Assembly (NCBI GenBank): GCA_027024155.1
Contig: JALVTE010000023.1
Coordinates: 1-48,677 of the forward strand
Length of the DNA stretch: 48,677 nucleotides
Origin: Campylobacteraceae bacterium
Lineage (GTDB): Bacteria > Campylobacterota > Campylobacteria > Campylobacterales > Sulfurovaceae
Reading direction: 5' to 3'
Both the position numbers and the translations under genes were made by a program. Below the pieces are notes generated by a model. That model was not told where the DNA came from. It made no database searches and worked only from the letters and a program-made list of their open reading frames with translations. Positions within the stretch are counted from its first letter, which is position 1. Every line of letters begins with the position of its first letter. This document shows, in pieces, positions 25,558 to 39,174 of the stretch.

Positions 25558-27861
25558 TTAGCTCTCTACTTTTGCTTCTTTTTGTCTGACTTGTTCTATC
25601 TTAGTACCCTCTTTTTGGTAAGCTATCTCACCCATAACTTCGGCTTGTTTAAGTACAATTCCGTTTGGAACTTTTTGCGAATGTAATTGTACGGCACACT
25701 GTTTATAATTTGGCTCAAACGATTTTGCATCGAACTCTGGTAATGTGATGGCATTAATTAACTGCTCATTAAAGTGGAAGGGTACGAATATGTTGCCTTC
25801 TCTTACTGTGTTGGCTACTTTTACTACTACATTATCTACTCTGCCTCTGTTTCCACTTATTGAGATTCTCTCGCCACTTTTAACTTTTAGTTTTTGTGCG
25901 TCTAATTCGTTCATCTCTATCCATGCTTCTGGGGCTAGGGCGTCTAGTATTCCTATTGTTCCTGTTTTTGTACGGGTATGGAACTGCTCTACTGTTCTGC
26001 CTGTGTTTAGAATGAGCGGGAAGCTCTCACAGACATTCTCGCTTAGGGGCTTCCAATCTAGTGGTAGTAACTTAGCTTTTCCGTCACTTGTTGGGCATGG
26101 CATCTCTTCGGTGTAGAGGCGTTTTTTGCCTTTTGGGTACTGCTCATTACATGGCCACTGTATTCCGCCTAACTCCTCCATTAGTTCGTAACTCATACCG
26201 CTATAGTCGCATAGGCGGCCTTTGCTAACATGACCCATCTCTTCGAAAGCATCTCTTGGGGTTTCGATATTTCTGTATAGTATATCGTGTACACCCTCAA
26301 AGTGTTTAGAGAACTCTTTAATTATATTAAAATCGCTCATGGTATCTTCGTATGGCTCTACTGCTTGCTTCGCCCAGTTACAACGGCGTTCGCTGTTTGT
26401 GTATGTTCCCTCTTTTTCGCTCCATGTGGCAGCTCCAAATACTACATCTGCAATTTTTGCTGTGTCGCTTAAGAAGGCATCTTGCACTACTAAAATGTCT
26501 AGCTTTTTTAATGCACTTCGTAAGCGGTTTTGGTCTGGGTAGCTAACAAGTGGATTGGTTGCTACAACCCATAGGGCTTTTATTTCGCCTCTATCTATTG
26601 CATCTATAATTTGTGGGTAAGCATAGCCACGCTCTGTTGGTACTAAATTAACATCTACACCAACAATATTTGCAAACTCTTCTCTATCTTTATCGTTTTT
26701 GTAGTCGCGATATCCAGGGATTGAGCTTGTAAATCCAAACTCTCTTGTTCCCATAGCGTTACACTGCCCAGTTATAGACATTGGCGAGCCACCCTCTTTA
26801 CCTAAATTCCCTGTAATTAGGGCTAAGTTGTTAATTGCACTTACTGTATCGGTTCCAATAGCACTTTGGTTAACGCCCATAGTCCATGCACTCATGGCAC
26901 TTTTCGCCATTGCGTAATCTCTTGCTACAGTGTAGAGTGTTTTAACATCTATACCTGTAATTTCGGCTACATCTTGCGGTTTATAGTTTGCTAAAATATG
27001 CTTTTTAAACTCTTTAAAGCCTGTTGTTCGCTCGTTTATAAACTTCTCATCTTCCCAGCCTTGCTCTAAAATAATGTAGCAAAGTCCATTAATTAGTGCC
27101 AAATCGCTTCGCGGTTTTATTGGTAAAAAGGTATCTGCCATTTGGGCTGTTTTACATTTTCTTGGGTCTACTACAATAATTTTTTTATTCTTTTTATTTT
27201 TCATTAAGTGTAGTTTTAAAATAGGGTGGTTATCTGCAATATTTGCACCTATTAGCATAATAACATCTGCTTTTTCAAAATCTTCGTAACAGCCAACTGG
27301 TCCATCGCTTCCAAATGTCTGCTTGTAACCCATAACGGCACTTGCCATACATAGAGTTGTGTTACCGTCGTAATTGTTGGTTTGTAAGCCTAGCTGTACA
27401 AATTTACCTAAAGTATAAAACTCCTCTGTTAGCAGTTGCCCCGTCGAAATTACACTTATAGCTTTGCTTCCATATTTTGCACTTATCTCTTTAAATTTTT
27501 TAGCAACTGTAGAGAAAGCTTCGTCCCACTGGACTTGCCTTAAAACACCGTCTTTTCGAATTAAAGCCCCCTTAGCTCGGCTTGGGGCTGTAACCATTTT
27601 ATGCTCGCTAAGCCCTTTTGGGCAAAGTGTTCCTTGGTTTACTGGATGTAGAGGGTCGCCTTTAGAGTAAACACCCTTGCCATCTTTAACCCCAACATAC
27701 ATACCACACCCAACACCACAATAACCGCAAGTTGTTCTAACCCACTTATCTGGTGCTTTAGATTTAGCAACTTTCCCAAAAATTGGGTCGTCAACTAGTG
27801 CGTATTCATCCTCTTTTATATCTTTGTCTAAAAAGTTTTTGAGTTTTTTTATAAAATCCAT
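25558..27861 (-). CDS. nasA: Assimilatory-type nitrate reductase, molybdopterin catalytic subunit
   Basis: A 767-residue Mo-bis-MGD oxidoreductase that should reduce nitrate to nitrite. One N-terminal [4Fe-4S] site is formed by Cys45, Cys48, Cys52 and Cys80. The stretch TTLCMASAVMGYKQTFGSDG matches NasA/NarB enzymes. There is no twin-arginine leader, so it is cytoplasmic, and the C-terminal [2Fe-2S] domain of some NasA proteins is missing. Context with nirA and narK supports nitrate over formate as substrate. The last gene but one of the nirA-dmsBC-nasA operon; element B separates it from the gene upstream. Confidence 0.85.
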   Translation of the reverse strand: MDFIKKLKNFLDKDIKEDEYALVDDPIFGKVAKSKAPDKWVRTTCGYCGVGCGMYVGVKDGKGVYSKGDPLHPVNQGTLCPKGLSEHKMVTAPSRAKGALIRKDGVLRQVQWDEAFSTVAKKFKEISAKYGSKAISVISTGQLLTEEFYTLGKFVQLGLQTNNYDGNTTLCMASAVMGYKQTFGSDGPVGCYEDFEKADVIMLIGANIADNHPILKLHLMKNKKNKKIIVVDPRKCKTAQMADTFLPIKPRSDLALINGLCYIILEQGWEDEKFINERTTGFKEFKKHILANYKPQDVAEITGIDVKTLYTVARDYAMAKSAMSAWTMGVNQSAIGTDTVSAINNLALITGNLGKEGGSPMSITGQCNAMGTREFGFTSSIPGYRDYKNDKDREEFANIVGVDVNLVPTERGYAYPQIIDAIDRGEIKALWVVATNPLVSYPDQNRLRSALKKLDILVVQDAFLSDTAKIADVVFGAATWSEKEGTYTNSERRCNWAKQAVEPYEDTMSDFNIIKEFSKHFEGVHDILYRNIETPRDAFEEMGHVSKGRLCDYSGMSYELMEELGGIQWPCNEQYPKGKKRLYTEEMPCPTSDGKAKLLPLDWKPLSENVCESFPLILNTGRTVEQFHTRTKTGTIGILDALAPEAWIEMNELDAQKLKVKSGERISISGNRGRVDNVVVKVANTVREGNIFVPFHFNEQLINAITLPEFDAKSFEPNYKQCAVQLHSQKVPNGIVLKQAEVMGEIAYQKEGTKIEQVRQKEAKVES

Positions 27862-28019: not shown

Positions 28020-28045
28020 CAAAGATAGCCTCACGGCTATCTTTG
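28018..28045 (-). terminator. Hairpin straddling the dmsBC-like stop codon
   Basis: A perfect 12-bp inverted repeat, CCAAAGATAGCC and GGCTATCTTTGG, with a 4-nt loop. The right arm is the end of the coding region with the stop codon (28037-28039); the left arm joins heptad element B. No T-run follows on the minus strand, so termination may be partial, which would allow nasA expression from the same transcript. Confidence 0.6.
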
Positions 28046-29635
28046 GTTCCCTGCAAAAAAGTTTCCTGCTAATCCTAATGGCACTACTGTTGTGTAGAAT
28101 AGGTATCTACCCATTATCTCGCTTGCGAATGCTCCGATTGTTGCGATTGTTACTACAAATAGTGCTAAGCCACTCTGTCCGCTAGATGCGAAAACTATAG
28201 CAAGCAGTGGCAAGGCGACAGCAAATAGTCTTAAACTGTGCACTCTTGCTGTTTTTACTTTTTTAAATCTATCATCTAGTAGAGTTTTTGTTCTATTTAG
28301 CTGATAGTATAGAGGGTTATCCTTGCTTAGATATTTGTAAAAATTAACCTCATCATTTATAATTAAATGTTGCAGTGCACCTGCTAGTAGAGTTACACTA
28401 AGTAGTACTACCGCACCGTTTGAACCACTGCTAGCTAAAAGCACAAGTGATATTAGTAAAAAGCCAACATAGCCACTTCCAAAGAAGCGTTTAGTTGTCG
28501 ATTCTCTATTCCACGCGGGGCGAGCTTTGATTCTGTAAATCATAGATTGTGCATAAATACCATACACCCCAACGCCCACGCCAATAGCTTCGATTAACAG
28601 CTTAAAGAAGCCATTAAAATCAAACAGATATAGCAACCAAACAAGCCCCGCAACTGTTGCAAATGCCCCAAGGGCGATAGCCTCGCGACTTAGCCACGAA
28701 GTTTTGTAATTACGCATTGCCCAAATAGCTTTTGCCGGTCGCCCAAGGTGCAGTGCCGAGAGTGGCAAGCCGATACCTGCTGGAAGCAGCGCCATAAATG
28801 CCATAGTTGCATTTGGTTTTGGCAAGTTAAAGCCAAGCGAATAGAGCAGTTGCCCTAAAAAGAGTGCTACAAAAGCCCCTACCGAAATTTGTGTAAGAAC
28901 TGTCATAAATACCAATGGCCACTCTGGATGGGCAGGCTTTAAAATATGTTCATCTGCTGGCTTAAACTCTGCACCCTCTGGCAACTCTGGAAGGGTGTAG
29001 CGAGTTGTTGGTTTTGTAATCTCTATATCTGGCAAGTGTGGAGCAACGCCCTCTTTAGCCATATCTTCATTTACCCATTGCTCAACATTTACCACTTCGA
29101 TATTAATTGCATTACTAGGACAAGCCTGAACACAAGCAGGGGTTTGCCCCGCCTCTAACTTATCTACACACATATGGCACTTTGTAACTATGCCTCTATC
29201 CGCATTAAATGTTGGCACTTCGTAAGGGCAGTTCCATGTACAGTACTGACACCCAATACAGTTTGGGTCATCATGAAAAACTATTCCATTCTCTAACTTT
29301 GTATATGCATTTGTTGGGCAACCTTTTAGGCACTCTGGGTCTATACAGTGGTTACAACTCATCGAGTTAAATAGCTGTAGAGTATCTGGGAATTGCCCAG
29401 CCTCCATTTCGCCAACGCGACGCCACTTTATATCGTCTGGATTCGCATTTTGCTCGTTACAAGCCACTTCGCAACAGTGACACCCAACACAAGCCGTTGC
29501 ATCAAAATGAAAACGATACTGTTCGCCCTCTTTAAGCTCTGGCAAGTCAATGCTGTAATTTCCACACTGCATACCAGTTTCATTTTTATGATTTATAAAA
29601 CTCTCTAATGGAGTATTCTTTGTTAATGGTTCCAT
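28037..29635 (-). CDS. Fused DmsB-like ferredoxin / DmsC-like membrane anchor
   Basis: A 532-residue fusion. Residues 1-235 hold four [4Fe-4S] sites: Cys49/52/55/59, 94/97/102/106, 126/129/132/136 and 153/156/168/172, the DmsB pattern. From about residue 240 come some eight membrane helices of the DmsC anchor type (PAGIGLPLSALHLGRP is typical). Such anchors oxidise membrane quinol and pass electrons to a molybdoenzyme. Set between nirA and nasA, it should feed NasA from the quinone pool. The usual two genes are one here. Elements B and C flank it. Confidence 0.88.
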   Translation of the reverse strand: MEPLTKNTPLESFINHKNETGMQCGNYSIDLPELKEGEQYRFHFDATACVGCHCCEVACNEQNANPDDIKWRRVGEMEAGQFPDTLQLFNSMSCNHCIDPECLKGCPTNAYTKLENGIVFHDDPNCIGCQYCTWNCPYEVPTFNADRGIVTKCHMCVDKLEAGQTPACVQACPSNAINIEVVNVEQWVNEDMAKEGVAPHLPDIEITKPTTRYTLPELPEGAEFKPADEHILKPAHPEWPLVFMTVLTQISVGAFVALFLGQLLYSLGFNLPKPNATMAFMALLPAGIGLPLSALHLGRPAKAIWAMRNYKTSWLSREAIALGAFATVAGLVWLLYLFDFNGFFKLLIEAIGVGVGVYGIYAQSMIYRIKARPAWNRESTTKRFFGSGYVGFLLISLVLLASSGSNGAVVLLSVTLLAGALQHLIINDEVNFYKYLSKDNPLYYQLNRTKTLLDDRFKKVKTARVHSLRLFAVALPLLAIVFASSGQSGLALFVVTIATIGAFASEIMGRYLFYTTVVPLGLAGNFFAGNQR

Positions 29636-29789: not shown

Positions 29790-29819
29790 GAATTAAAAAG
29801 TCAAAAGACTTTTTAATTC
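29790..29819 (-). terminator. Hairpin straddling the nirA stop codon
   Basis: A perfect 13-bp inverted repeat, GAATTAAAAAGTC and GACTTTTTAATTC, with an AAAA loop. It includes the nirA stop codon (29793-29795) and the last codons. It touches heptad element C. Read on the minus strand the descending arm contains a T5 run, so it may attenuate transcription into the dmsBC-like and nasA genes. Confidence 0.6.
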
Positions 29820-31697
29820 AGTAAACACTTTAGCTCTTTTACTTCTATCTTCGTGTGTCATTAAGTATATTGCCTCACTTAAGCTTAAAGGTACTTTTGG
29901 ATTAAGCTTAGTTACTTCATTCTCTTTTATCTTTCTAGGTTTTACCTTTATTGGCTCTAATCCATCAACTCCATCGAATCTATTTTCACCTGTTAGTAGC
30001 TTAAATAGTTTTAAGCCAAAGTAAAATACTTCGTGCTCTTCATCGCCTAAGCTTTTTGGCTCTTTCTCTAACTCGAACTCTACATTTAAATCGGCACTTT
30101 GCATATAAAAATTAACTTTTGTGAAAAATGCAATCGCTTGGTGGCTATAGTTGTTAAAGAAACGCTCTTCGAAACTCTCGAAGCTCTCATTTTCTTTTTT
30201 AAACTTAGCATATGTCTTTATTAAATATTTAATATGCTCTTTAGCCTCTGGTATAGGTAGAGATTTATGCAGTACATATGCCTCTTTTGCCTCTTTTGTA
30301 ACTTTGCCACCAAAGAAGATATGCACACCATCTACACGATTGCCCTCAGAATCTTTTGCTTTGCAACCCTCTAGCCCAATATCTGCTACACCGTGTATTC
30401 CGCACCCTTTTGGACACGCTGACCAATTTATTCTAACAAGCCCATTTTCTAGTAGTATTTCTCTATTTAAGTAACTAGATAGCTCTATTGCATCTGGCTT
30501 ATTTGGTATTACACCAAACGAGCAAGTAGCAGTTCCGGCACACGCTATCATATTATTAAAGTAGATATTGTTAAACTTTTTATACTTCTGTGCAAGAGGC
30601 GATTTTTCGAACTCTTTGCTCTCGCTAACTCCAAGTATCCATAAGTTTTGCCCAATATCTATACGCAAGTTGCCATCGCCAACAATTTCGCTAAGTTCGC
30701 TAGCGTTTATCATATCGCTTCCGCTAAATATTCCAGAAGGTACAGTTAGTTTCATCGCAAACTTGCCATCGCGAGTAAGTATTTTGTTACTTCCAAAATT
30801 AATAGGTTGCGACTGTACCATATTTACACCGGCACTCTTACGCTCTTTGCCAAGCAGGCTATATACCGCACTCATAAAACTATCATTCCCTACATCTTTT
30901 AATAGATAATGCAGGCGGTTTTTATTACGGTTATCACGGTATCCATACTTTTTATATGTGTTAATAATCGCTTCAAAAACTTCGGCTACCTCTTGTGTTT
31001 CAACAAATGTATTAGCACAAGTTGCTTGCTCTCCAACTTTTCCGCCAAGGTAGAGGTTAAAACCAAAGATACCATCTTTTTGAGCCAATACAAAAGAGCA
31101 GTCGTGCCCATAAATGTTACAACTATTAGAGAGCGAGCCTAAAATTGCACCATTAAATTTACGAGGCAAAGTACCAATATATTCGCTTCTTTTTAAAAAA
31201 ACCTCTTGCATCTGCTCTAGCAAAGGTTGTGTGTGGATAATATTGTCGTGTGCATATCCATCCAATGGGTCTGTTGCTATATTTCTTAAATTGTCAATTC
31301 CAGTTTGGTAAGTTGTAATGCCTACACTATCCAACTCTTTAACAACTGTTGCAATATCTTCTATTTTTATGTAGCGAAGCTCTAATTGCATACGGGTTGT
31401 AAGGTCGATATAGTCATTACCATACTTTAGGGCAACTTCGCCAATTTTTTTAGCTTGCGTGTGCGTTAGCTTTCCACCTGGTACTCTAACACGAAGCATA
31501 AAATCGCTATCTTTAATAAAATAACCAAAGCACTTTAGATAAAACGAGATATCCTCTTTAGATAGATTCTCCCAACTGGCATTTGCTATCTCTTCTAATC
31601 TTTTATATGTATCTTGTGGTATAACTTCTGTTTTTATTGCTTCTATTTTATTTACTTTTTTACTTCTTGCCTCTTTGGCAGATTCTAAAGTTGTCAT
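29793..31697 (-). CDS. nirA: Nitrite (or sulfite) reductase, siroheme type, with C-terminal extension
   Basis: A siroheme/[4Fe-4S] enzyme that should reduce nitrite to ammonium with six electrons from ferredoxin. The cluster ligands are Cys386 and Cys392 (CAGTATC) and Cys428 and Cys432 (CPKGC), and the repeated ferrite-reductase half-domains are present (RVPGGKLTHTQAKKIGEV at 71). At 634 residues it is longer than usual NirA (about 510-560); roughly the last 100 residues are an extension of unknown role. Gene context with nasA and narK favours nitrite over sulfite. First gene of the minus-strand operon, divergent from narK. Confidence 0.88.
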   Translation of the reverse strand: MTTLESAKEARSKKVNKIEAIKTEVIPQDTYKRLEEIANASWENLSKEDISFYLKCFGYFIKDSDFMLRVRVPGGKLTHTQAKKIGEVALKYGNDYIDLTTRMQLELRYIKIEDIATVVKELDSVGITTYQTGIDNLRNIATDPLDGYAHDNIIHTQPLLEQMQEVFLKRSEYIGTLPRKFNGAILGSLSNSCNIYGHDCSFVLAQKDGIFGFNLYLGGKVGEQATCANTFVETQEVAEVFEAIINTYKKYGYRDNRNKNRLHYLLKDVGNDSFMSAVYSLLGKERKSAGVNMVQSQPINFGSNKILTRDGKFAMKLTVPSGIFSGSDMINASELSEIVGDGNLRIDIGQNLWILGVSESKEFEKSPLAQKYKKFNNIYFNNMIACAGTATCSFGVIPNKPDAIELSSYLNREILLENGLVRINWSACPKGCGIHGVADIGLEGCKAKDSEGNRVDGVHIFFGGKVTKEAKEAYVLHKSLPIPEAKEHIKYLIKTYAKFKKENESFESFEERFFNNYSHQAIAFFTKVNFYMQSADLNVEFELEKEPKSLGDEEHEVFYFGLKLFKLLTGENRFDGVDGLEPIKVKPRKIKENEVTKLNPKVPLSLSEAIYLMTHEDRSKRAKVFTELKSLLTF

Positions 31698-31748: not shown

Positions 31749-31820
31749 ATTATACTAAGATTTTACGCACATCATTGCCTAAAAATTAAGCACCTAATAT
31801 TGTAAAAATTAATCTATAAT
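31749..31820. promoter_or_regulatory. Divergent nirA/narK control region with palindromic operator
   Basis: The site TTGCCTA-aaaat-TAAGCAC (31775-31793, centre 31784) matches the amtB palindrome TTGCCTA-N5-TAGGCAA at 12 of 14 arm positions. A TATAAT for narK starts at 31815, 31 bases to the right of the centre. A TATAAT for nirA on the minus strand starts at 31754, 30 bases to the left. Neither promoter has a good -35. One operator thus stands at the class-II activator position (about -43) for both directions. Confidence 0.7.
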
Positions 31821-31851
31821 TCTACAACTACTTCATAAAAAGGATTTATCT

Positions 31852-33135
31852 ATGGCAAAAGGCTTTAGTGTATTAAAAAAAGAGGGACATTTGCCAACAC
31901 TCTTAATGGCATTTATCTATTTTGATATGAGTTTTATGGTCTGGACAATGTTAGGACCACTATCAACAGAGATTGCAGAGGCTTTAGCAAAGAATGGTTT
32001 TATGATTACACCATCACAAAAGGCAACTTTATTATCTCTACCAATACTTTCAGGGGCAATACTTAGAATACTGCTTGGTTTTCTAGTAGATAAAATAGGT
32101 CCTAAAAAGACAGCTTTAATAGCACAAGCTATAGTTATTGCATCGTTAGCTCTTGCCTTTATGCAAGGTAATAGCATTACATATAACCAACTCTTAATAG
32201 TTGCTTTAGGGCTTGGTTTTGCGGGGGCTAGCTTTGCGGTTGCTCTTCCACAAGCGGGGCAGTGGTATCCACCAAGTTTGCAAGGTGTGGTTATGGGTAT
32301 TGCAGGGGCAGGAAATATCGGTGTGGTTTTAGATTTCTTGCTTGCTCCTAAAATTGCAGAGTATTGGGGTTGGAATGCCGTATTTGGAGTTGGTGCAGTG
32401 CTCGCTTCTATTGTGTGGGTTGCGTACCTATTCTTGGCAAAAGATGCACCAAGCACAGTATATAAAAAGAACCCTAAAAAGTTAAGAGATTATTTAAAAC
32501 TACTAGGCGACAAAGATACATGGTGGTTTAGCCTATTTTATGCAGTAAGTTTTGGTGGCTTTGTTGGATTTGCAGGATATATGAAAGTTTATTTAATGAA
32601 CTCTTATCAAGTAGATATGGCTGAGGTAGGAAAAGCCTTATTAAACGAAGATAATGTAAAAGTTGTAGCTGGTTACTTTGGTGCAATAACAATATTTGCA
32701 GGTGCAGTACTACGCCCTGTTGGTGGTGCTGTTGCAGATAAGTTAGGTGGTGTTAAGTCGTTATATATCTTTTTTGGTGTAGTAACTGCTCTTGCACTAA
32801 TTACAGCATTTGCTAAGTTGCCATTCTGGATTGCCATTGCGGTTCTGTTTTTAATTATGGCAAACTTAGGTATGGCAAACGGAGCAGTATTCCAATTAGT
32901 ACCACAAAGATTTGGTAAAGATATAGGTATTATGACAGGTCTAGTAGGCTGTGCCGGCGGACTTGGCGGAACAGCACTTATTAAGACTCTTGGCTGGTCT
33001 AAAGAGGCATTCAACGGATACAGCGTAGGATTTATGATATTCGCAGGCGTAGTTGTATTGGCAATTATTGGTATAAGCTTAGTAAAAACTCGCTGGAGAA
33101 CAACTTGGGGTGTTAGTGCTGGAGGACGTATTTAG
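31852..33135 (+). CDS. narK: Nitrate/nitrite transporter, NarK family (MFS)
   Basis: A 427-residue inner-membrane protein with about 12 helices. It has the NNP-family nitrate signature GLGFAGASFAVALPQAGQWY, followed by GVVMGIAGAGNIGVV, and a second glycine-rich signature, GIMTGLVGCAGGLGGTAL, in the C-terminal half. It should import nitrate for NasA or export nitrite. Divergent from nirA over a 154-bp control region. The stop codon TAG is inside the first unit of heptad array G. Confidence 0.94.
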   Translation: MAKGFSVLKKEGHLPTLLMAFIYFDMSFMVWTMLGPLSTEIAEALAKNGFMITPSQKATLLSLPILSGAILRILLGFLVDKIGPKKTALIAQAIVIASLALAFMQGNSITYNQLLIVALGLGFAGASFAVALPQAGQWYPPSLQGVVMGIAGAGNIGVVLDFLLAPKIAEYWGWNAVFGVGAVLASIVWVAYLFLAKDAPSTVYKKNPKKLRDYLKLLGDKDTWWFSLFYAVSFGGFVGFAGYMKVYLMNSYQVDMAEVGKALLNEDNVKVVAGYFGAITIFAGAVLRPVGGAVADKLGGVKSLYIFFGVVTALALITAFAKLPFWIAIAVLFLIMANLGMANGAVFQLVPQRFGKDIGIMTGLVGCAGGLGGTALIKTLGWSKEAFNGYSVGFMIFAGVVVLAIIGISLVKTRWRTTWGVSAGGRI

Positions 33136-33184
33136 TGATTAGTTGTTAGGGGTTAGTGATTAGTGCTTTTTACAATAAAGCACT
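33132..33184. repeat. Heptad array G and hairpin after narK
   Basis: Exactly five 7-bp units at 33132-33166: TTAGTGA, TTAGTTG, TTAGGGG, TTAGTGA, TTAGTGC. The narK stop codon (33133-33135) is part of the first unit. The array runs into a hairpin, AGTGCTTT and AAAGCACT with a 7-nt loop (33162-33184), a possible narK terminator without a T-run. There is no opposite heptad arm. Confidence 0.75.
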
Positions 33185-33225
33185 TCTTGCTATAATGTTG
33201 GTCAATTAAATCAAGAGGATTATTA

Positions 33226-33708
33226 ATGCCAAATATACAAATAAGAGAAGCAACAGTGGAAGATGTACCTCTAATATTCAACTTTATCAAACAATTAGCA
33301 ATCTACGAAAAAGCCGAAGATGCAGTAGTTGCGAACGAAACAGATATAAAAAACTCACTATTCTCAGACAGCTCAACTGCCTATGCACTTATAGCTTTAT
33401 TAGACGATAAACCAGTAGGCTTTTCTGTATATTTTTTCAATTACTCCACATGGCTAGGAAAAAACGGTTTGTACTTAGAAGATTTATTCGTCTTACCAGA
33501 ACACCGAGGAGCAGGCATAGGCAAAGCCCTACTAAAACACTTAGCCAAAATAGCAGTACAAAACAACTGCGGACACTTCGAATGGAGCGTACTAGACTGG
33601 AACCAACCAGCAATAGACTTCTACCAATCAATAGGAGCCAAACCACAAGATGAGTGGATAATTTATAGATTGACTGGGGATGCTCTTAAAGAGTTTGCAG
33701 AGGGTTAA
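33226..33708 (+). CDS. GNAT family N-acetyltransferase
   Basis: A 160-residue GNAT protein: begins IQIREATVEDVPLIFNFI, has the acetyl-CoA loop LPEHRGAGIGKALLKHLAK (motif A, R/Q-x-x-G-x-G/A) at about residues 92-110, and the motif B segment WNQPAIDFYQSIGAKPQDEW. It resembles the diamine or thialysine acetyltransferase subgroup, but the substrate cannot be fixed. The codon choice (many CNA and ACA/CTA codons) differs somewhat from neighbours, as does part of livF. Monocistronic, with ribosome-binding site agagga. Confidence 0.88.
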   Translation: MPNIQIREATVEDVPLIFNFIKQLAIYEKAEDAVVANETDIKNSLFSDSSTAYALIALLDDKPVGFSVYFFNYSTWLGKNGLYLEDLFVLPEHRGAGIGKALLKHLAKIAVQNNCGHFEWSVLDWNQPAIDFYQSIGAKPQDEWIIYRLTGDALKEFAEG

Positions 33709-33773
33709 GAGGTTTTTAAAGTTGGCAGAGCCTAATATTAAGTAGCAAAACTAGAGCTTCGCTACTAGAAAAG

Positions 33774-34565
33774 TTAAACTTCAATATATCCTTCAAGATA
33801 CATAACAGCTTGTCCGAGTATTTCTACATTTTCTTTAGAAACATTACATAATAAAATACCACCTCTTTTTGAGGCTTGGTATGCTTTGAGTTTACTCTTA
33901 TTTAATTTTTCTGCCCAATATGGTGCCAGCCCTGTATGTATAGAGCCTGTTACTGGGTCTTCTAATCCGCCATTTGCTGGCCAAAAATATCTTGAGATAA
34001 AGTCGTAATCATTGCCTTTAGCAGTAACAACAACATCATAAGGTGCTATTTTTTTTAACTCTTCAAGGTTTGGTTTAATTTTAATTATATCTTCTTCGTT
34101 ATCATATATGGCAAAATATGCTTGTTGATTTAGCAGTATCTCTTTTGGTTTAATAGATAAACCTTTAATTAATTCAGTTGGTACAGACGAAACTTTTTTA
34201 GGCTTTCGGTTTGGAAATTGCATTTTAATATAGCTATCTTCTTCTTTGGTAATTTTAAAATTTCCAACACTTTTTGTTATAAATTCAATTTCGTTTAATT
34301 GTCTATTCTCTTTAAAAAGAACAAATGCAGAAGCTAAAGTGGCATGACCACAAAAATCTATCTCTTTTAAAGGAGAAAACCATCGAATTTCATAACTTAT
34401 ATCAGTTACCTTTTTAATAAAAGCAGTTTCAGAAAGATTATTTTCTGTTGCAATAGATTGCATTAAATCAGTAGATAGCCACTCTGTTAGTGGAACTACT
34501 GCTGCATAATTACCAGTAAAAACTTTATCTGTAAATGCATCCACTTGATATATTTTTAACTTCAT
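33774..34565 (-). CDS. PhzF family isomerase/epimerase-like protein
   Basis: A 263-residue PhzF-like protein with the two-domain diaminopimelate-epimerase fold: KIYQVDAFTDKVFTGNYAAV at the start, the catalytic Glu in NNLSETAFI, DFCGHATLASAFVL, and a second-half GGLEDPVTGSIHTGLAPYW. Most bacterial members are of unknown function; phenazine synthesis is not implied because no other phz gene is near. Transcribed from a promoter with TATAAT (minus strand, 34588-34583). Confidence 0.9.
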   Translation of the reverse strand: MKLKIYQVDAFTDKVFTGNYAAVVPLTEWLSTDLMQSIATENNLSETAFIKKVTDISYEIRWFSPLKEIDFCGHATLASAFVLFKENRQLNEIEFITKSVGNFKITKEEDSYIKMQFPNRKPKKVSSVPTELIKGLSIKPKEILLNQQAYFAIYDNEEDIIKIKPNLEELKKIAPYDVVVTAKGNDYDFISRYFWPANGGLEDPVTGSIHTGLAPYWAEKLNKSKLKAYQASKRGGILLCNVSKENVEILGQAVMYLEGYIEV

Positions 34566-34589
34566 AAACTACCTTTTTTAATATTATAC

Positions 34590-34622
34590 TAAAAATTGCC
34601 TACATTTTAAACACCTACAATC
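34590..34622. repeat. Direct repeat DR1 flanking brnTA
   Basis: This 33-bp segment matches 35397-35429 at 30 of 33 positions, including the unbroken 18-base run TGCCTACATTTTAAACAC. The two copies flank the brnTA pair on either side. DR1 contains a degenerate form of the nitrogen-gene palindrome (TTGCCTA-cattt-TAAACAC at 34596-34614). Relative to the phzF -10 its centre is only 17 bases upstream, so here it would overlap the core promoter. Confidence 0.7.
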
Positions 34623-34635
34623 TAAAACTTTCTCT

Positions 34636-34667
34636 GGTTACAAAATTGCATTTTGTAACCTTTTTTT
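34636..34667 (+). terminator. Strong intrinsic terminator, plus strand
   Basis: A perfect 10-bp stem, GGTTACAAAA and TTTTGTAACC, with a 5-nt loop and a T7 run (34661-34667): the clearest intrinsic terminator of the window. It points rightward, but both flanking genes (phzF, brnA) are on the minus strand and the nearest plus gene ends 930 bp upstream. For brnTA transcripts the hairpin lacks a T-run. It may insulate against antisense reading or be left from an earlier arrangement. Confidence 0.75.
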
Positions 34668-34725
34668 AAGCAAGCCAATACGGTAAACTAGATTTAGCAA
34701 CTATGCTACTCTTAAAGCCCACAAC

Positions 34726-34995
34726 TCAAGCTCTCTTATTTGAAAGCCCCTCTTGTAAAAGCATTTTTATCAATGACTGATAAGGCACATCCATACTGTT
34801 TGCTTTTACTTTTAATGCATCTATCATGTCTACAGGAAGGCGGATAGAGATACTTTTGGTTGTTTTTTTTAAGTTTGGAAAGCGTACTTTTTTTACTTTT
34901 GATTTGTCAAAATAGTCTAAAGTGTCGTGATTTTCCCAAAACTCTCGCTCTTCATTTTCATTTTTAAATGTAGGGATTGTTTTTGTTGTTTTCAT
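34726..34995 (-). CDS. brnA: BrnA-like antitoxin (ribbon-helix-helix)
   Basis: An 89-residue protein with a charged N-terminus and a C-terminal ribbon-helix-helix DNA-binding domain (KSISIRLPVDMIDALKVKAN), as in BrnA/CopG antitoxins. It should bind and neutralise BrnT and, with it, repress the operon. The ATG lies inside the end of brnT (32-bp overlap), preceded by aaggagaaaaa. The toxin-first order is typical of brnTA. Confidence 0.88.
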   Translation of the reverse strand: MKTTKTIPTFKNENEEREFWENHDTLDYFDKSKVKKVRFPNLKKTTKSISIRLPVDMIDALKVKANSMDVPYQSLIKMLLQEGLSNKRA

Positions 34996-35287
34996 AAAAC
35001 TTTTTCTCCTTTTTTGTCATTGTTCTTGCTGATATTACACAAATTAAGCCATCTCTTACGGTAAAAACTACCATAATTTTATTGTTGTTATTGTCTCGCC
35101 CGAAAGCGATACATCGACACTCTTCGTAAGAGTGTGAAAAATCTTCAACAATAAGAAGTGGTTCATTAAAAAATACCTCTTCAATTAGTTTATAGTTTAA
35201 TCCATGTTTTTTTTCGTTTTTATAGACATTAGCATCGTCCCAGTCAAAACCAGTTATTGATTCTGTATCTAAACAATCAAATTCCAT
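34964..35287 (-). CDS. brnT: BrnT-like ribonuclease toxin
   Basis: A 107-residue RelE-fold toxin of the BrnT family: FDWDDANVYKNEKKHGLNYK at the start, EVFFNEPLLIVED in the middle, and RDGLICVISARTMTKKEKKF near the end, matching the BrnT R-x-I-S-A-R-x-M-T-x-x-E motif. I use the ATG at 35287, with ribosome-binding site agagg; a longer frame to 35359 would run through the operator. BrnT toxins cleave RNA and stop translation. It stands between the nitrate genes and the kinase gene, flanked by direct repeats. Confidence 0.88.
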   Translation of the reverse strand: MEFDCLDTESITGFDWDDANVYKNEKKHGLNYKLIEEVFFNEPLLIVEDFSHSYEECRCIAFGRDNNNNKIMVVFTVRDGLICVISARTMTKKEKKFYENNKNNPYI

Positions 35288-35303
35288 ATTGCACCTCTTT
35301 TGT

Positions 35304-35324
35304 ATATGTATATTATATACATAT
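35304..35324 (-). promoter_or_regulatory. Probable brnTA operator
   Basis: A dyad with 9-bp arms, ATATGTATA and TATACATAT, around a 3-nt centre, 16 bp upstream of the brnT ATG. Position and symmetry suit binding by the BrnA ribbon-helix-helix domain for autoregulation, as known for this family. Confidence 0.6.
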
Positions 35325-35396
35325 TTGTTTAAAAGAAGATAAAATATTAGGGGTAACAATTTGTTATTCTTTTTTAGGTTCTTGCTATTAACGGTT

Positions 35397-35448
35397 TAAA
35401 AACTGCCTACATTTTAAACACCCATAATCCCACAAATTTAGATAATAT
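35397..35448 (+). promoter_or_regulatory. Promoter of the PP2C-kinase gene with operator (and repeat DR2)
   Basis: Repeat DR2 (35397-35429) holds CTGCCTA-cattt-TAAACAC (35403-35421, centre 35412), a degenerate copy of the amtB palindrome (10 of 14 arm positions). A -10-like TAATAT starts at 35443, exactly 31 bases from the centre, the same distance as at amtB and narK. There is no -35 consensus. The ribosome-binding site (caggaggg) and ATG 35472 follow. Confidence 0.6.
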
Positions 35449-35471
35449 AGAGCAAATCAGGAGGGCTATCT

Positions 35472-37100
35472 ATGTCTAAAAAAAATTTAGAGATTTCAGC
35501 ATTTAACTTAGCAAAGGGTAAAGAGTTAAAGGGTGATGATTATTTTGCTTACAAGCAGTTGGATGATATTACTATAGCTGTTGTTTGTGATGGTGTGGGT
35601 AGTGCTAGGGCTGGGGCTAAGGCTGCTAAGAGAGCGGTAGAGTTTTTGATAAATGCTCTTAAGAATCGCCCTGTCTCTTGGAGTATGGAGAAGTCGATAC
35701 TGCATTTTATTGAGAATATTAACCATATTTTGTATATGGAGTCACAGCAAGAGTATGAGAGTGTAGAGTATGTAACTACATTAGCAATGGTTGTTATAGA
35801 GGGTAATCGGCTTTATGGGGCTAATGTTGGGGATAGTAGAATTTATTTAAAAAGAGAGCAAGAGCTTACACAGCTCTCTACCGACCATTCGATGAGCGAA
35901 GAGAGTATGCAACATATTTTAATTTCGGCACTTGGGCTTGAGGAGAGTGTTACTCCACACTATTTTGAGAATAATTTGCACATTAATGATAAGTTGCTTC
36001 TATGTAGTGACGGTTTATATAATGAACTAACAGAGCAAGAGTTAAGCGATGGAATAGATATAAATGCCTCTTTTTTAGTTAGAAAGGCGAGCAAAAAGCA
36101 TAATGATAATTTGCCAGATGATACAACAGCTATTGTAATTAAGGTAAAAGAGCTTGACCCAAGGTTGCATTTTAAACAGAAAAATTTGATTGTTCAAGAT
36201 AAATACTCAAAGGGTGAAGTTATAGATGGCTATACACTTATAAAACCATTAGCCATTCATAGACGAGTTTGGAAAGCAAGTAAAAGAGGACAAAATTATG
36301 TAATTAAATTTGCCCCTTACGATGCAATAGATGACCCAAAAGCTTTGGATATGTTTGTTAAAGAGGTGTGGAATGCAAAACGACTTAAAGCTGGATTCTT
36401 TGTAAAAGCGGTTGTGCCAACCAATAGAACACACCGCTACTATATAATGCAATATATAGATGGAGTCGAGTTAAAAGAGCAGATAAAAAAGCGACCTATT
36501 AGCGTAGATAGCGGGGTGGAGTTAGCTAAGTTTACATTAAAGATGTCACAATATTTAATACGGCAAGATTTAGTGCATGGCGATATAAAGCCAGAGAATA
36601 TTATGATTTATGAGCGAAAAGGAAAAGAGGCTTTTAAATTTGTGGATTTTGGCTCTATTACTGAAGCGTATAGTAATGTTAGCCGTGCAGGAACACCAAG
36701 CTATCTGGCACCAGAGCGTTTTGAAGGTTTACCAATAACAGAGCAGAGCGAAATATTTGCAATAGGTGTTACACTATACGAAGCACTTACTGGAAAGTTC
36801 CCATATGGAGAGATAGAGCCGTTTCAGAGCCCTACATTTAAGACAGCTAAAAGACCAAGCACCTTAAACCCAAAAGTTCCAAAGTGGCTTGATAGTATTA
36901 TAATGAAAGCTATCGAAGTGGATACTAAAAGACGATACACCCACTATTCTAATATGCTTTATGAACTAAATAACCCGCAAAAGGTTGAGCCATACTATGC
37001 AAGTGAAGAGAATCTTTTAAGTAAAAATCCTCTTACAGTATGTAGAGTGGCGTTGGTTTTGTCGCTTCTTGCGAATTTTGCGTTTATGATTTTTGGTTAG
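35472..37100 (+). CDS. PP2C phosphatase - Ser/Thr kinase fusion, membrane-tethered
   Basis: A 542-residue protein. Residues 1-230 form a PP2C phosphatase with metal aspartates at D40 (CDGVGS), D121 (VGDSR), D180 (CSDG) and D216-D217 (DDTT). Residues 250-500 form a protein kinase: K279 (VIK), HGD with D371, K373 and N376, DFG at 392-394 and APE at 413-415. The Gly-rich loop is poor. One membrane helix ends the protein (521-541). A similar gene sits in the nitrate-assimilation cluster of Pseudomonas aeruginosa (PA1782), which supports a role in nitrogen control. The target is unknown. Confidence 0.92.
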   Translation: MSKKNLEISAFNLAKGKELKGDDYFAYKQLDDITIAVVCDGVGSARAGAKAAKRAVEFLINALKNRPVSWSMEKSILHFIENINHILYMESQQEYESVEYVTTLAMVVIEGNRLYGANVGDSRIYLKREQELTQLSTDHSMSEESMQHILISALGLEESVTPHYFENNLHINDKLLLCSDGLYNELTEQELSDGIDINASFLVRKASKKHNDNLPDDTTAIVIKVKELDPRLHFKQKNLIVQDKYSKGEVIDGYTLIKPLAIHRRVWKASKRGQNYVIKFAPYDAIDDPKALDMFVKEVWNAKRLKAGFFVKAVVPTNRTHRYYIMQYIDGVELKEQIKKRPISVDSGVELAKFTLKMSQYLIRQDLVHGDIKPENIMIYERKGKEAFKFVDFGSITEAYSNVSRAGTPSYLAPERFEGLPITEQSEIFAIGVTLYEALTGKFPYGEIEPFQSPTFKTAKRPSTLNPKVPKWLDSIIMKAIEVDTKRRYTHYSNMLYELNNPQKVEPYYASEENLLSKNPLTVCRVALVLSLLANFAFMIFG

Positions 37101-37450
37101 TGGTGTGCGTAACTTCAGTTAAATAAACTGCAATTTCGTAGGTATGACCATGTCACACATTAAATAAAGCTTTTCGCGTAGGGTTGGTTTATCGACCATA
37201 AAATAGGCATTCATTCGAATAATTGGTCGATAAATCGACCCTACGCATATATGAATATTTTAAACTCCATAATATTGAGGTTTTAATCCTTAGGTTGATG
37301 TGTATACTACATGGTCACACCTACAGTTAAATTATAGAGTAATATAATACCCAATTATGCAAGAAAATCTAAATTGCCTATTTTTTAGGCAACTCTATTA
37401 ACTACTTTTAATATATAATGGTAAGATAAATTTTATTTTAAGGATGAGAA
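37101..37450. repeat. 350-bp gap: nested palindrome element, then amtB promoter
   Basis: The left part is a two-level palindrome. Outer arms: GTAGGTATGACCATGT (37138-37153) and ACATGGTCACACCTAC (37309-37324), one mismatch. Inner arms of 23 bp (37176-37198 and 37224-37246) with two mismatches, containing GCGTAGGGT and ACCCTACGC. A small hairpin CAGTT/AACTG (37116-37130) lies outside. Nothing in it looks coding. The right part (37374-37450) is the amtB promoter and leader. Confidence 0.75.
37374..37419 (+). promoter_or_regulatory. amtB-glnK promoter with perfect palindromic operator
   Basis: TTGCCTA-ttttt-TAGGCAA (37374-37392, centre 37383) is a perfect 7-bp dyad. The -10 TATAAT (37414-37419) starts 31 bases from the centre, so the site would be near -43 from the transcription start. 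The -35 position reads aactct and is not a consensus, as expected for an activator-dependent promoter. It is the best copy of the motif also found at nirA/narK and at the PP2C-kinase gene. Confidence 0.72.
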
Positions 37451-38758
37451 ATGAAGATTAAACTTCTTGCGCTTTTAGCGTTGATGCTTCCAGCTTTAGC
37501 TTTTGCTGGTGATGCTCCAAAATTAGATAGTGGTGATACTGCGTGGATGATGATATCTACAGCTTTAGTATTATTAATGACTCCAGCTGGTCTTGCACTA
37601 TTTTATTCAGGTATGACTAGAAGTAAAAACTCACTTAACACATATGCTATGGTTGTTGGTGCGTTTGTAGTAGCTATGATTGTATGGATTGTAGCAGGTT
37701 ACTCAATAGCATTTGGTGCTAATGCAGATGCAGGTATGCAAAAGTTCTTTGGTGGTTTTGCAAATGTTATGTTAAATGGTATTAAGTGGACAGACCTTAG
37801 TGGTACTTACCCAACATATGTATTTGTTGCATTCCAAGGTACATTTGCAGCAATTACTGTTGCGATTGCTAGTGGTTCTGTAATTGAGAGAATTAAATTC
37901 TCTACTTGGATTGTTATTGTAATTCTTTGGGGTTTAATTGTTTATGCTCCTGTCGCTCATATGGTATGGGGTGGAGGAATACTAATGGGTAAAGGTGCTC
38001 TTGACTTTGCAGGTGGTACAGTTGTACATATGAATGGCGGTCTTGCTGGTTTAGTACTTGCTATTTTAGTTGGTAAAAGAGCTAACTATCCAAAAATTGC
38101 TGTTAAACCTATGAGTGTAATGCTTACTGCACTTGGTGCTGCACTATTGTGGTTTGGCTGGTATGGATTTAACGCAGGTAGTGCATTTGGTGCAAATGCG
38201 ATTGCTGGTTTGGCACTTTTAACAACTACTATTGCAACTGCATTAGCTGGTATTGTATGGATGCTTTTAGAGTGGATTATCTATAAAAAGCCTACATTAC
38301 TTGGTTTAGCTTCTGGTATTGTTGCAGGTCTTGTTGCTATTACTCCAGCAGCTGGTTTTGTTAATGTAGAGGGTTCTATGATTGTTGGTGCAGTTGGTTC
38401 GCTAGTTGGATTCTTTGGTGTTGTTTCTTTAAAGAAAATCTTTAAATACGATGATAGTTTAGATGCATTTGGTATTCACTTTATAGCTGGTCTATGGGGT
38501 GCATTAGCAACTGGTTTACTAGCTGTAAAAGATAACGATTTATTATGGGATGGTCCTTTAAAAGCTAGTGGTGATAGAATGGGTCAATTTATGGTTCAGT
38601 TAGAGTCTGTTGGCGTTACTATTGCATGGGTAATTGTTGGTACAGTTGTTGTTTACTTTATTGCATCTGCAGTAACTGGTGGTGGTAGAGTAGATAAAGA
38701 GACTGAAGAGATGGGTCTTGATGAAGCAACTCACGGAGAAAAGAGTTTTAACCTATAA
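37451..38758 (+). CDS. amtB: Ammonium transporter
   Basis: A 435-residue Amt protein with a cleavable signal peptide (MKIKLLALLALMLPALAFAG) and 11 membrane helices. The Amt start GDTAWMMISTALVLLMTPAG, the signature VVHMNGGLAGLVLAIL with the first pore histidine, and the second in FGIHFIAGLWGALATGL are present. It takes up ammonium and is gated by GlnK, which is encoded 74 bp downstream. The stop codon lies at the edge of a hairpin, AATTTA-TCTC-TAAATT (38757-38772). Confidence 0.97.
   Translation: MKIKLLALLALMLPALAFAGDAPKLDSGDTAWMMISTALVLLMTPAGLALFYSGMTRSKNSLNTYAMVVGAFVVAMIVWIVAGYSIAFGANADAGMQKFFGGFANVMLNGIKWTDLSGTYPTYVFVAFQGTFAAITVAIASGSVIERIKFSTWIVIVILWGLIVYAPVAHMVWGGGILMGKGALDFAGGTVVHMNGGLAGLVLAILVGKRANYPKIAVKPMSVMLTALGAALLWFGWYGFNAGSAFGANAIAGLALLTTTIATALAGIVWMLLEWIIYKKPTLLGLASGIVAGLVAITPAAGFVNVEGSMIVGAVGSLVGFFGVVSLKKIFKYDDSLDAFGIHFIAGLWGALATGLLAVKDNDLLWDGPLKASGDRMGQFMVQLESVGVTIAWVIVGTVVVYFIASAVTGGGRVDKETEEMGLDEATHGEKSFNL

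Positions 38759-38829: not shown

Positions 38830-39174
<345 letters not shown>

Follow-up and report, generated by a model that had tools for sequence, protein, structure and literature searches.

A TGnnTA-W5-TAnnCA operator at nitrogen-gene promoters across Campylobacterota and a reduced NtrB/NtrC-like pair as its predicted regulator

We analysed a 48,677-nucleotide stretch of DNA from a Campylobacteraceae bacterium of the Sulfurovaceae (contig JALVTE010000023.1 of assembly GCA_027024155.1; hereafter the window), in which genes for nitrate reduction, nitrate transport and ammonium uptake, together with a gene for a PP2C phosphatase–kinase protein, share an inverted repeat (the dyad) ahead of their -10 boxes (Table 1). 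A perfect dyad, TTGCCTATTTTTTAGGCAA (centre 37383), precedes amtB-glnK and is identical in sequence in a relative, G004; a single dyad, TTGCCTAAAAATTAAGCAC (centre 31784), serves both directions between the divergent narK and nirA genes; and a degenerate one, CTGCCTACATTTTAAACAC (centre 35412), stands before the PP2C-kinase gene. An earlier reading of the letters (the original prediction) had placed the first two exactly, with -10 boxes at 31 bp for amtB and at 31/30 bp for narK and nirA. Its PP2C-kinase site holds as a degenerate copy that is kept in two relatives, though the -10 box claimed for it at +31 is a weak one (either TAATAT at +31 or GATAAT at +29 from the dyad centre), and it overlooked a fourth near-copy centred at 34605. 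All of these promoters had been said to lack a -35 box, which is usual for sigma-70 promoters of Campylobacterota and by itself no evidence.

The general form of the operator is TGnnTA-W5-TAnnCA (W, A or T), of which the TTGCCTA/TAGGCAA arms described originally are one half-site variant. In the weight matrix, TG at -8/-7 and TA at -4/-3 are invariant in each half, the five central positions are A/T-only and two positions per half are free; TGATTA is the commonest half-site in use, alongside TGCCTA, TGCTTA, TGTATA and TGTCTA. Searched for with three mismatches, the earlier consensus gave six matches in the window where 4.3 are expected (i.e., chance level), and we therefore replaced the strict consensus with the weight matrix. 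When this matrix was trained on other genera only (leave-genus-out), the four dyads were the top four sites in 48.7 kb (18.6, 18.0, 15.7, and 12.7 bits), all of them intergenic; simulated windows held on average 0.025 sites of at least 17 bits and 0.35 sites of at least 13 bits. Across the organism's own genome, the 17-bp pattern TGHHTA-W5-TADDCA occurs 12 times and the reversed control pattern not once.

Using protein searches, we took the amtB and narK loci from 60 relatives and found one dyad type in almost every readable amtB or narK promoter across Campylobacterota. Within 48 loci, no match of at least 17 bits falls well inside coding sequence, and nearly all such matches lie upstream of amtB, glnK, narK, nirA, nas genes, the PP2C-kinase gene, or c8, a small gene beside amtB. 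The PP2C-kinase gene usually has no site of its own and in many relatives lies close behind narK; where the two are separate (our genome, G004 and G033), a site is found at -60 to -69, with sequence and position (-60) unchanged in G004 and as TTGCCTACTATTTAATCAA at -69 in G033. In our genome, matches above 20 bits stand at amtB, narK/nirA, glnA (centre ~75 bp before the start), c8 and, as a double site, before the gene for a 205-amino-acid (aa) membrane protein; the other pattern matches score below 16 bits and lie mostly in or at coding sequence. Readable matches in other genomes again mark amt genes, narK, nirA, glnA, c8 and the 205-aa protein gene. The clustering in relatives that the original prediction expected is thus observed before amtB, narK, nirA, nas genes and glnA, and its claim of one operator common to nitrate reduction and transport, the PP2C-kinase gene and ammonium uptake is supported by orthologous promoters phylum-wide and by glnA. 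At the double site (L230, G000:C20:97763-97810), the two dyads lie 31 bp apart and score 24.8 and 21.6 bits; the 205-aa protein resembles a cupredoxin/oxidase subunit II, gave no Pfam match above cut-off, and has a relative in G041 whose gene also carries a dyad (L242).

The distance to the -10 box follows a rule. Measured from the dyad centre, the best -10 box begins at 30/31 or 40/41 bp in 58 of 86 sites (a set that includes close relatives, so that not all sites are independent), and at few other distances. The two classes are one helical turn apart, our genus belonging to the 30/31 class, which suggests that, at promoters of sigma-70 type, RNA polymerase is contacted from a single face of the DNA. 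The position near -41/-42 given by the original prediction holds in the window, but in many genera the dyad sits one helical turn further upstream.

The candidate regulator is the product of c8 (~240 aa), which is present in 53 of the 60 relatives, often adjoins amtB, and carries the operator dyad at its own promoter; in our genome it lies outside the window (240 aa, G000:C106:2969-3688, minus strand). Its C-terminal helix-turn-helix (HTH) matches Pfam HTH_8 (Fis) above cut-off and HTH_50 below it, with ntrC (TIGR01818) as the best NCBIfam match, scoring 31-41 bits where the cut-off is 558.6. The HTH is joined to a shortened AAA+ domain: in c8 members from other families (G055, G053, and G050), the match to the beginning of Sigma54_activat scores just above cut-off, and a single member matches AAA_lid_14 below cut-off. 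In an AlphaFold2 model (predicted local distance difference test score, pLDDT, 91.9), the AAA+ part superimposes on PspF (Z 15.2, 2.3 A, 170 residues), and the model also matches NtrC1 (Z 14.9) and NtrX (228 residues); because the PspF alignment covers 170 of ~235 domain residues, ~65 residues are missing in c8. As modelled, c8 has an AAA+ fold of the sigma-54 activator type, which with its C-terminal Fis HTH places it in the bacterial enhancer-binding protein superfamily. By receiver, GAFTGA or family score, c8 is not a member of the NtrC family: Pfam matched no receiver domain in c8, Walker A starts near residue 31 in most members, and the GAFTGA loop occurs in 0 of 53 c8 sequences. Our genome yielded no full-length NtrC, only receiver matches. 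Throughout the 53 sequences the GK of Walker A is kept and the Asp of Walker B is mostly Asn, so that nucleotide binding without hydrolysis is plausible, as reported for Rhodobacter capsulatus NtrC (PMC10274813); the sequence speaks against ATP hydrolysis by c8 driving a sigma-54 open complex.

Two other proteins came into question as dyad binders. A DUF234-domain protein (cluster c7; L076, L078, L085, L086) is divergent from c8 and shares the dyad region with it in many Sulfurovum/Sulfurimonas genomes; it was rejected on the grounds that it has no HTH match and is divergently placed. A nearby full-length sigma-54 activator (cluster c13) was set aside because the target promoters have TATAAT boxes.

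The link between c8 and the operator comes from distribution and from the recognition helix. Of 150 genomes sampled across the class, 44 encode a c8 of full length (E below 1e-50), and in the others the matches were confined to fragments of other activators; genome-wide, the operator pattern and its control number 282 and 55 in the 44 genomes with c8, versus 235 and 120 in the 106 without (Mann-Whitney p 7e-12). The sharpest comparison is glnA, which all 30 genomes examined for it possess; with seven unreadable loci left out, each of the 15 genomes with c8 has a dyad upstream of glnA, at a distance of 62-83 bp and scoring 8.8-26.2 bits, and none of the eight readable genomes without c8 has one (at most 5.4 bits). 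Within the recognition helix, Ile in place of Asn after NR goes with TGTATA half-sites (8/10 vs 7/136), as does Ala (6/6).

These data bear on two alternatives. One holds that the motif is a core promoter element or an AT-rich chance feature of low-GC Campylobacterota, with no dedicated regulator behind it; the genomes are indeed AT-rich, the centre is A/T only, and the three-mismatch consensus search stayed at chance, but invariant TG/CA and TA/TA with free positions between them, the specificity for nitrogen genes, and the missing glnA dyad in c8-less genomes contradict this account, and we regard it as highly improbable. The other holds that a factor of like distribution but of another type (CRP/FNR, GlnR/MerR, or LysR) binds the dyad, the NtrC-like pair being a member of its regulon. 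Since the c8 gene has a copy of the operator, c8 may be no more than one of the targets, and its binding to the dyad is a prediction. Yet the glnA dyad is missing from genomes without c8, and Ile in the recognition helix goes with TGTATA half-sites; the HTH of c8 is of NtrC/Fis type; and the dyad, with its odd centre and N5, shares the geometry of an NtrC site and is unlike CRP/FNR dyads. We judge another binder unlikely. In our assessment c8 is very probably the dyad-binding protein, as predicted from helix, geometry and distribution.

The original prediction counted the motif among none of the known operators. For NtrC this does not stand, as TGnnTA-W5-TAnnCA and the NtrC site TGCACC(A/T)4TGGTGCA (PMC4987338) have the same 17-bp odd-centred geometry (i.e., that of TGCACC-W5-GGTGCA). 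On general knowledge, the operators of CRP/NtcA, LysR (T-N11-A) and GlnR/TnrA were rejected by half-site and centre geometry. Measured against a CRP/FNR class II promoter, the position near -42 agrees, but the dyad is odd-centred and the candidate binder is not CRP-type.

Judged by position, binding of c8 would probably activate. Were c8 instead a repressor, its dyads would stand in the way of sigma-70 RNA polymerase as long as nitrogen is abundant, and its release would allow expression; in favour of this are the dyad at c8's own gene, which in several genera is 24-34 bp away from the start codon, and the 34605 dyad, 17 bp from a -10 box. At the nitrogen genes, however, the dyad precedes the -10 box by 30/31 or 40/41 bp, the usual activating zone, and simple blocking needs no helical phasing, which leaves repression as the general mode improbable. 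In several genera the dyad at c8 (L206 in G000:C106; L176-L205) is much closer to the start codon than at the targets, and given this distance c8 may repress its own gene.

In most genomes the gene of the putative partner, c10 (~235 aa), shares 14-20 bp with c8, and in families where the two do not adjoin c10 is found elsewhere in the genome; c8 and c10 are jointly present or absent in 59 of 60 genomes. A model of c10 (pLDDT 88.8) shows a PAS domain and an ATPase domain, the latter with the NtrB C-terminal domain 1r62 as its best structural match (Z 15.2, 2.6 A, 121 residues), a match of fold only, with other kinase ATPase domains within 1 Z. As a sequence search of c10 against solved structures returned nothing significant, the link to NtrB is one of fold comparison; c10 also falls in no NCBIfam family. 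In the model a single ~15-residue helix joins the PAS and ATPase parts, and the two-helix phospho-acceptor domain (the His-carrying dimerisation domain) is absent.

Together these observations lead us to propose, with a probability of roughly 0.83, that the dyad serves as operator for a Campylobacterota-wide regulator of nitrogen genes, a reduced NtrB/NtrC-like pair acting at sigma-70 promoters. A c8 dimer would bind TGnnTA-W5-TAnnCA with the dyad centre ~42-43 bp upstream of the expected start (~52-53 bp in other genera), on one helix face relative to TATAAT, and the bound protein would activate through direct contact with sigma-70 RNA polymerase. Its targets are amtB-glnK, narK, the nirA operon, glnA, the PP2C-kinase gene and c8 itself. 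c10 would hold or release c8 by direct contact, as NifL does NifA, and GlnK, encoded behind amtB, would be the likely nitrogen signal; control of c8 by GlnK and the partner, argued by analogy, has in our view about an even chance of being correct. We are equally divided on the evolutionary reading that an NtrB/NtrC-like pair lost both ends of its phosphorelay and its sigma-54 interface and now works, at housekeeping sigma-70 promoters that allow two spacings, by contact among proteins (GlnK, the PAS/ATPase partner and the AAA+/HTH protein).

The operator, its target set, the spacing rule, the co-occurrence and the domain make-up can be read from sequence, and several points weigh against the proposal built on them. 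Binding and activation by c8 are themselves predictions from sequence; the GlnK link is an analogy, with gene neighbourhood with amtB-glnK as its local footing; and outside the HTH, sequence lends little weight to an NtrC ancestry of c8. The presence/absence counts and their p value ignore phylogeny, and the c8-less genomes are concentrated in few families. Helix variants with Val or Gly do not follow the Ile/Ala-to-TGTATA trend. Finally, the promoter of c8 itself breaks the spacing rule: dyad centre and -10 box are ~26 bp apart in our genome, and several other genera have the dyad only ~25-35 bp from the start codon.

The NtrB/NtrC system of E. coli and Salmonella resembles the one proposed here in its glnA and glnK-amtB targets, in a 17-bp odd-centred dyad with TG...CA ends and an A/T centre (PMC4987338), and in combining a Fis-type HTH and an AAA+ fold with a partner that has an NtrB-like ATPase domain. 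It differs from c8 and its targets, where we find no receiver, no GAFTGA, a sigma-70-type -10 box, a site at ~-42/-52 and the half-site TGnnTA, and from c10, whose lack of phospho-acceptor helices implies that there is no phosphorelay. NtrC of Rhodobacter capsulatus and Caulobacter likewise lacks GAFTGA and controls sigma-70 promoters, including glnA in Caulobacter (PMC10274813); unlike c8 (~240 aa, with receiver and His helices gone), it keeps the receiver and needs its phosphorylated Asp. NifL-NifA offers a parallel in which a partner with PAS and a kinase-like ATPase domain serves an AAA+ activator, and there GlnK acts through the NifL ATPase domain (PMC8219145). NifA, though, contains a GAF domain and acts on nif genes as a full sigma-54 activator, and c8 has neither GAF nor the sigma-54 loop; direct contact between c8 and c10 would be an analogy to this pair. 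Members of the TyrR/VpsR-type class of enhancer-binding regulators act at sigma-70 promoters and are like c8 in the HTH (the HTH_50 match below cut-off), but they are larger proteins with other ligands and targets.

Free-living Campylobacterota are major chemolithotrophs of vents and sulfidic waters. In the open-access literature, beyond whose reach most subscription journals lie, we found no earlier description of this operator or regulator, and the papers found there describe no nitrogen master regulator for free-living members. Our analysis supplies a concrete operator together with a candidate binding protein, its partner, a regulon and a rule for promoter spacing, all of which are open to test in culturable members. 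If the proposal is true, a two-component system can shed its phosphorelay and alternative sigma factor and keep its regulon, with which the absence of the glnA operator from lineages without c8 would fit.

Table 1. Genes, operator dyads and -10 boxes of the window (PWM, position weight matrix; MFS, major facilitator superfamily).
Feature	Coordinates	Strand	Basis and remarks
Molybdopterin oxidoreductase, probable assimilatory nitrate reductase	25558..27861	-	domain/family searches
4Fe-4S/DmsC-like subunit, next on nirA strand	28037..29635	-	domain search
nirA, ferredoxin-nitrite reductase family (target)	29793..31697	-	Pfam NIR_SIR; NCBIfam PRK09566 335 bits, under its cut-off
nirA -10 box TATAAT	31749..31754	-	30 bp from dyad centre
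Operator dyad, common to divergent narK and nirA promoters	31775..31793	.	PWM 21.9 bits; 18.6 bits with leave-genus-out matrix; orthologous narK dyads in relatives
narK -10 box TATAAT	31815..31820	+	31 bp from dyad centre
narK-type nitrate/nitrite MFS transporter (target)	31852..33135	+	domain/family searches
Fourth operator-like copy, upstream of PhzF gene	34596..34614	.	inside 33-nt direct repeat around BrnT-type toxin-antitoxin module
PP2C-kinase operator, degenerate	35403..35421	.	14.4 bits; present in G004, G033
PP2C-kinase candidate weak -10 box TAATAT	35443..35448	+	position relative to dyad
PP2C phosphatase + Ser/Thr kinase protein (target)	35472..37100	+	close behind narK in several relatives
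amtB-glnK operator, perfect dyad	37374..37392	.	21.5 bits; identical in G004
amtB -10 box TATAAT	37414..37419	+	starts 31 bp from dyad centre
amtB ammonium transporter (target)	37451..38758	+	domain search
glnK, P-II signal protein, next gene after amtB; proposed signal input	38833..39174	+	domain search

Two repeat structures accompany the operators. The fourth copy and the PP2C-kinase dyad each lie in one arm of a 33-nt direct repeat (34590-34622 / 35397-35429; 91% identical, 807 bp apart). Between its arms lie a BrnT-type toxin (PF04365, 73 bits) and a probable antitoxin of 89 aa, an arrangement that looks like insertion of the BrnT module accompanied by a duplication of the PP2C-kinase operator; the copy at 34596-34614 is possibly a leftover duplicate. 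Upstream of amtB, at 37138-37324, nested inverted repeats resemble a miniature inverted-repeat transposable element, with 23-nt arms at 37176/37224 and 16-nt arms at 37138/37309.

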